From an uncultured Cytophagales bacterium (GTDB taxonomy: Bacteria > Bacteroidota > Bacteroidia > Cytophagales > Thermonemataceae), in NCBI GenBank assembly GCA_938002655.1, contig CALLAC010000005.1:62001-126000 (forward strand): a DNA stretch of 64,000 nt, in the 5' to 3' direction. Both the position numbers and the translations under genes were made by a program. Positions 62,163 through 62,333 of this stretch are shown here, in pieces. The number at the start of each line of letters is the position of its first letter. Positions within the stretch are counted from its first letter, which is position 1. The notes beneath the pieces are model-generated. The model searched no databases. It had not been told where the DNA came from and worked only from the letters and a program-made list of their open reading frames with translations.

Positions 62163-62249
62163 ATGAAATCCCAAAGAAACCGCAAGTCTTTTTACTACAC
62201 TCTTCAACAAATTCTTTCTAATAGCTTTTGTTGTTGTTGTTGCTTGTAG
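62163..62249 (+). CDS. 28-codon leader ORF with five consecutive Cys codons
   Basis: ATG at 62163, stop TAG at 62247-62249. The product begins MKSQRNRKSFYY and ends NSFCCCCCL. Codons 23-27 are TGT TGT TGT TGT TGC, then TTG and the stop. A basic, short peptide ending in a run of one amino acid is the hallmark of an attenuation leader, here for cysteine. The product itself is probably not functional. The ORF lies between the SAM-I aptamer and metY, and its stop codon is the first base pair region of a stem-loop (62247-62281). Poly-cysteine leader ORFs controlling sulfur genes are known in mycobacteria; I know of none described after a SAM riboswitch in Bacteroidota. Confidence 0.85.
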   Translation: MKSQRNRKSFYYTLQQILSNSFCCCCCL

Positions 62250-62333
62250 CAATTAGCCTACGATTTCTATGGCTTTTGCTAAACCCTCCTAAAAATCAAT
62301 CCATCAAATTTTTAGCGATTGGCTTTTTATTTT
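62247..62333 (+). promoter_or_regulatory. Candidate attenuator with mutually exclusive helices
   Basis: Hand-derived pairings. Helix 1:2 is TAGCAA and AGCC (62247-62258) with GGCT and TTGCTA (62271-62281). Helix 2:3 is TTGCTAAA (62276-62283) with TTTAGCGA (62311-62318), including one wobble pair. Helix 3:4 is AAAAATCAATC (62291-62301) with GATTGG, bulged C, TTTTT (62317-62328), followed by ATTTT. Helix 2:3 excludes both others. A further CTAAAAAT/ATTTTTAG pairing (62289-62315) is also possible. A ribosome stalled on the Cys codons would cover the 5' arm of 1:2 and favour 2:3, allowing read-through to metY. Confidence 0.6.

Follow-up and report, generated by a model that had tools for sequence, protein, structure and literature searches.

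In the 64-kb stretch of DNA analysed here (the window), a 28-codon open reading frame (ORF) in the 5′ leader of metY ends in five Cys codons, one Leu codon and a stop, which raises the question of whether it is a free-standing cysteine attenuator, as a sequence-only reading had proposed, or one part of a larger regulatory leader. Translation reproduced the ORF exactly (62163–62249, forward strand, as are all features described below; product MKSQRNRKSFYYTLQQILSNSFCCCCCL, tail CCCCCL-stop). Its five Cys codons in a row, TGT TGT TGT TGT TGC at 62229–62243, encode residues 23–27 and are the putative regulatory codons. The gene that begins 127 nt after the leader stop (62377–63699) encodes MetY, an O-acetylhomoserine aminocarboxypropyltransferase (sulfhydrylase), whose matches to PF01053 and TIGR01326 both exceed the cut-offs (672 bits for TIGR01326, cut-off 495).

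The ORF does not stand alone. Directly upstream, at 62047–62153, lies a SAM-I riboswitch aptamer (RF00162; 74.7 bits, gathering threshold 44.4) that covers model positions 1–108 and is thus full length; this 107-nt element is the sole Rfam match in the 64 kb, the leader ATG follows 9 nt 3′ of its end, and the pair proved to be a conserved unit. An independent cysteine attenuator was therefore rejected: an aptamer always adjoins the leader, and Cyclobacteriaceae aptamers missed by a regular expression were found with Rfam. The same genome carries a second SAM-I aptamer, 5′ of metH and without a leader ORF, and both aptamers precede sulfur-metabolism genes, as class RF00162 expects; the metY copy should sense S-adenosylmethionine (SAM). 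Upstream of it we found a promoter-like sequence of the Bacteroidota type (61990–62021; TTG at 61990, TAACTTTG at 62014–62021; consensus TAnnTTTG, PMC9723704), from which the transcript should begin near 62026.

We propose that the locus is a dual SAM/cysteine leader, a two-input sulfur sensor that would act through transcription attenuation in this genus and be ON when both inputs are low, a reading to which we assign a probability of about 0.72. We are almost certain that riboswitch and ORF are coupled and that the ORF is a conserved leader with a Cys run.

Recurrence of the pair and the genes that carry it

SAM-I aptamers were gathered from genomes of the family, the order and the class, and 234 loci were read, a Cys leader being scored where an ORF started 3–18 nt behind the aptamer and had at least three Cys among its last ten residues. 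At metY, 41 of the 57 aptamer-preceded loci carried a Cys leader, against 0.025 expected from dinucleotide shuffles of the metY loci; here and below, such counts are of loci, which include close relatives and are not independent, rather than of evolutionary events. The leader was also present at four of six aptamer loci of cysH and at four of 19 of metX, where four further ORFs ended in CC. It occurred at one of 97 metH loci, at none of the 17 metB or four metK loci, and at nine of 34 loci of other genes, whose products were NIR/SIR-type reductases (L192 and L199), HPP-family and NhaC-like membrane proteins and a TonB-receptor-like protein. At L074 it precedes a PAPS reductase gene with a CysD-like gene behind.

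A metY-based scan of named genomes added Raineya orbicola, Thermonema, Hymenobacter, Adhaeribacter, Mucilaginibacter, Pedobacter, Chryseolinea and many metagenome-assembled genomes, giving a total of 115 Cys leaders, which represent ten or more families of the order as well as other orders (L030, L290, L297, L314). The Cys run is thus conserved in relatives. At metY loci without an aptamer (e.g. L078, L079, L083, L084, L092, L114 and L129), the ORFs listed included none ending in a Cys run, and part of the aptamer-preceded metY loci (L045, L048, L052, L058 and others) also lacked the run. Counts of TGYTGYTGYTGY in whole genomes were uninformative, other repeats swamping the signal.

Several loci showed individual arrangements. 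At L045, L048, L052, L058, L156, L164, L168, L170, L196, L212 and L216, an ATG at +7 to +10 is kept and the terminal Cys run is absent. At L181, L183, L205 and L207, the aptamer and Cys leader are followed by a conserved 78-aa ORF outside all Pfam families and by a membrane protein of the HPP family that is a candidate for sulfur-related transport. In the window's genus, L071 has the pair 5′ of an NhaC-like protein of the antiporter family, which may transport sulfur amino acids, and at L034 a HicB/HicA-like antitoxin-toxin pair, two small ORFs, was seen by eye 82–522 nt after the SAM-I aptamer. At L097 and L100, an OsmC-like gene sits between the Cys leader and metY.

RNA structure after the leader stop

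Compared to shuffles, excess structure was confined to the stretch from the leader stop to 75 nt beyond it (mean z −1.28, 32% below −1.65), mean z being −0.17 in the leader ORF, −0.01 in the pre-gene region and 0.06 in the gene. In the window, 62247–62335 had a folding z of −3.17, with one of 200 shuffles equally stable, and two mutually exclusive folds were predicted. The first consists of stem A, the proposed antiterminator, which starts at the stop codon (62247–62252/62276–62281 and 62255–62258/62271–62274; −11.3 kcal/mol alone), together with a compatible hairpin D (62290–62302/62315–62329), in which the U-tract is paired into the 3′ arm. The second, obtained on withholding the 5′ arm of stem A, is the proposed terminator, which takes its own 5′ arm from stem A sequence (62271–62274/62321–62324 and 62276–62283/62311–62318) and runs into UUUUUAUUUU (62324–62333).

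The three helices named by the sequence-only reading were all present where it had put them, the competing helix extending through the additional pairs 62271–62274/62321–62324, while the roles it gave them look reversed. Its terminator, 62291–62328, has the U-tract buried in its own 3′ arm, whereas the helix it regarded as a competitor runs up to the U-tract. The probable terminator is therefore this competing helix with UUUUUAUUUU behind it, and the stem at the stop probably serves as the antiterminator. A simple terminator scan of the window gave no match because it limits loop size.

How far this design extends was judged from the relatives. R. orbicola (L068) has the same design in another sequence, with a strong stem A that is exclusive with a terminator-like hairpin (GCUUGC...GCAAGU, then UCUUUUUAUUU; −11.9 kcal/mol). 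In the congener L073, stem A is strong and the second hairpin has no U-tract directly after it. Over 110 leaders, a hairpin with a U-tract was found in 23, compared to 13.8 in shuffles, at −7 kcal/mol; since this enrichment is mild, the window's design is not general, and no single terminator common to the 110 leaders was found. The covariation that had been anticipated for the three helices was likewise not seen across relatives, the hairpins after the stop being lineage-specific.

Cyclobacteriaceae have a covarying hairpin of their own after the Cys leader, TAGCC..GACC.TGCC-RGTGACAGG..GGTT..GGCTA, located 45–65 nt after the leader stop (L110, L133, L120, L123, L142, L146, L122, L100, L113, L121 and others). 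In its alignment (model R1), 95.5% of cells are paired and double-change cells number 20, compared to 6.2 in shuffles and 0–3 in slid controls. It has a conserved GTGAC loop region, is not followed by a U-tract and remains beside the leader stop despite an osmC-like gene inserted 5′ of metY, and its covariance model found matches in Cyclobacteriaceae alone. On its 5′ side lies CAGCAACA, complementary to the Cys codons; pairing between Cys codons and anti-Cys sequence was weak as a general rule (mean z −0.53, 17% below −1.65). The sensing part of the leader is thus widely conserved and its output part lineage-specific.

For this genus, the predicted folds incline us somewhat towards intrinsic termination. 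The same two sensors could instead act through a different output, the position of the ribosome setting Rho-dependent termination, or the translation or stability of the downstream mRNA, and this we hold to be a real possibility, if on the improbable side. It gains from the mild enrichment of intrinsic terminators and from the Cyclobacteriaceae hairpin that is kept without a U-tract; moreover, Cys leaders of Actinobacteria likewise have no obvious terminators (PMC1262725) and riboswitches outside Firmicutes are mostly translational (PMC2258182). It fits less well with the hairpin that excludes stem A and ends at a U-tract in both the window and R. orbicola, with hairpins whose position close to the leader stop is kept when an osmC-like gene intervenes before metY, and with the region just 5′ of the gene start, which has no excess structure.

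A proposed two-input mechanism and its known relatives

Under attenuation in this genus, our preferred reading, the SAM-I riboswitch would read SAM and the progress of a ribosome through the terminal Cys run would read charged tRNA-Cys. A ribosome waiting at 62229 would cover mRNA to about 62241, and one at the stop to about 62259. Since the footprint at the first Cys codon ends before stem A, a ribosome stalled there by a shortage of Cys-tRNA should leave stem A free to form, deprive the terminator of its 5′ arm and allow metY to be transcribed; since the footprint at the stop reaches into the stem, ample Cys should bring the ribosome over the 5′ arm of stem A and let the terminator form. As in trp, the terminator would thus be averted at low Cys-tRNA and formed at high Cys.

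This low-Cys = ON logic is in our view highly probable. It fits the gene pattern, as PAPS reductase, NIR/SIR-type reductases, metY and transporter-like genes carry both sensors, and metB (a Cys consumer) and metH carry the riboswitch alone. A response of the opposite sign, in which a stall exposes the terminator so that Cys shortage represses metY and sulfide is spared for cysteine synthesis, appears unlikely to us. Ribosomes that stalled mostly on the last Cys codons would indeed sit over the 5′ arm of stem A, which would promote terminator formation, and metY and cysteine synthase do compete for sulfide. However, the same leader stands at a PAPS reductase operon and at NIR/SIR-type reductases, which are expected to be ON at low Cys, and the coordinates place the first Cys codon far enough 5′ to leave stem A free.

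How SAM would act on the low-Cys = ON leader is a more tentative matter. SAM-bound P1 would close just 5′ of the leader start, probably hindering initiation and thereby favouring termination, and the fixed 9-nt spacing suggests as much; SAM-I riboswitches with the initiation region inside P1 are known (PMC2258182). As the search for sequence antisense to the P1 3′ strand gave no clear partner, and no more than in metH loci, it is the spacing that argues for gating of the leader by SAM, which we put at a little under even odds. An untranslated leader might also adopt the OFF fold, if stem A had its 5′ arm paired to the Cys codons, a step for which the pairing signal is weak. Still more tentatively, the riboswitch may act by gating initiation of the leader ORF and not through a terminator of its own, leader translation being the shared currency of both inputs. 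If so, Bacteroidota would widely possess a NOR gate with SAM and Cys-tRNA as its inputs, with both sensors given to makers and users of sulfide (metY, cysH and sulfite-reductase-type genes) and the riboswitch alone to metH and metB.

Leaders with Cys runs were already known, as the sequence-only reading noted for mycobacteria: in Actinobacteria they precede cys operons of Mycobacterium and Propionibacterium and cbs of Bifidobacterium (Seliverstov 2005, PMC1262725; also Canestrari 2020, as cited in PMC13236596). The leaders described here resemble them in being short ORFs with a terminal Cys run, sulfur genes downstream and, in most lineages, no obvious conserved terminator. They differ in belonging to Bacteroidota, in starting at a constant distance from a SAM-I aptamer, whereas the actinobacterial ones are not described behind a riboswitch, and in the genes that follow (metY, cysH or metX). 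Furthermore, the mycobacterial Cys leaders that have been tested are leaderless, while in the window a 107-nt aptamer precedes the ATG by 9 nt. In Rhodobacterales, the uORFC-8-2 motif upstream of cysS, the gene of Cys-tRNA synthetase (PMC8632094), likewise combines a leader ORF containing Cys codons with a terminator-like structure after it, but this alphaproteobacterial motif has two Cys at positions 14–15 and no riboswitch, compared to Cys 23–27 and metY in the window.

Attenuators of the trp/his type share the regulatory codons and, as predicted for the window, the mutually exclusive antiterminator and terminator; here a riboswitch is added, the Cys run abuts the stop and the terminator is not general among relatives. 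Within Bacteroidota, leader-peptide attenuation has been proposed for Flavobacterium amino-acid operons (PMC9723704). Two-sensor leaders are also on record, as tandem SAM-I and AdoCbl riboswitches at metE of Bacillus clausii (cited in PMC2258182) and as combinations of SAM riboswitch and T-box (PMC12452182). Tandem riboswitch leaders have the same two sensors per leader and combined logic, their second sensor being an aptamer or T-box rather than, as here, a translating ribosome. Another relative is the mgtL leader ORF, which is joined with the Mg2+-responsive mgtA leader RNA. It likewise couples a leader ORF to a ligand-responsive leader RNA, except that the ORF lies inside the Mg2+ element and senses other residues, whereas aptamer and ORF are consecutive here.

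The composite leader is therefore a new combination of two known kinds, and it is widely conserved. The literature searched, with subscription papers and preprints outside its scope, describes no SAM riboswitch joined to a Cys leader, no riboswitch and ribosome-sensing leader peptide as one recurring unit and, in agreement with the earlier expectation, no cysteine leader in Bacteroidota. With the pair, the cell can probably gauge two sulfur products before it commits to further production, and the pair would show how Bacteroidota integrates the methionine branch of sulfur metabolism, through SAM, with the cysteine branch. The pattern of genes is metabolically sensible, with the riboswitch alone at Cys-consuming metB and both sensors at Cys-bypassing metY and the sulfate-reduction genes. 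Additionally, the leaders are a natural test of whether, in Bacteroidota, translation-transcription coupling is tight enough to allow attenuation, and their large number could be put to use for RNA logic gates.

The Cys run as codons

Comparison of the window with R. orbicola (L068) showed seven substitutions in the first 20 leader codons, all seven of them synonymous. Of the 115 leaders, 78 end exactly on a Cys and 24 more have their last Cys within one residue of the end, and the Cys codons TGT (410) and TGC (204) are used interchangeably. The position of the start codon is also held: an ATG lies 7–12 nt behind the aptamer at 37 of 41 metY loci with a Cys run and 13 of 16 without, compared to one of 96 metH loci and 9.7% in shuffles. 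The sequence upstream of the leader ATG is A/T-rich, with a Shine-Dalgarno motif in two of the 115.

Beyond these features the leaders have little in common. Their N-termini are unrelated across lineages (99 distinct N-terminal octapeptides among 115), their lengths range from 23 to 55 aa, and the peptides match no NCBIfam family. This weighs against a leader that is not an attenuator and whose Cys-rich peptide acts itself by binding metal, sulfide or a partner protein, as the shared features are position, Cys run and sulfur target genes only and structured RNA starts right at the stop. We regard such a peptide as very unlikely, even though the N-terminal part is constrained between two congeners and the majority of tails finish exactly at Cys. 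We find it scarcely credible that the TGY stretch is not read as codons and serves as a repeat or structural RNA element instead. TGTTGT runs are of low complexity, and the Cyclobacteriaceae run can pair with the downstream CAGCAACA; but the run shares its frame with an ATG of fixed position, is closed by a stop, exchanges TGT for TGC freely, contains Met, Ile and Ala codons in the same frame and does not occur in metH leaders, and the substitutions in the window ORF are synonymous.

A last observation concerns Met, which makes up 7.7% of the last 12 leader residues compared to 1.3% of the body, in a set that was selected on Cys and not on Met. Tails in which Met is mixed with Cys occur in Mucilaginibacter and Cyclobacteriaceae (e.g. 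L099, L117 and L125), and the leaders of L098 and L128 end in HMSMRMPGC and HMTMPMPGC, respectively. Given the Met codons in many Cys tails, Met-tRNA may be a further, third input.
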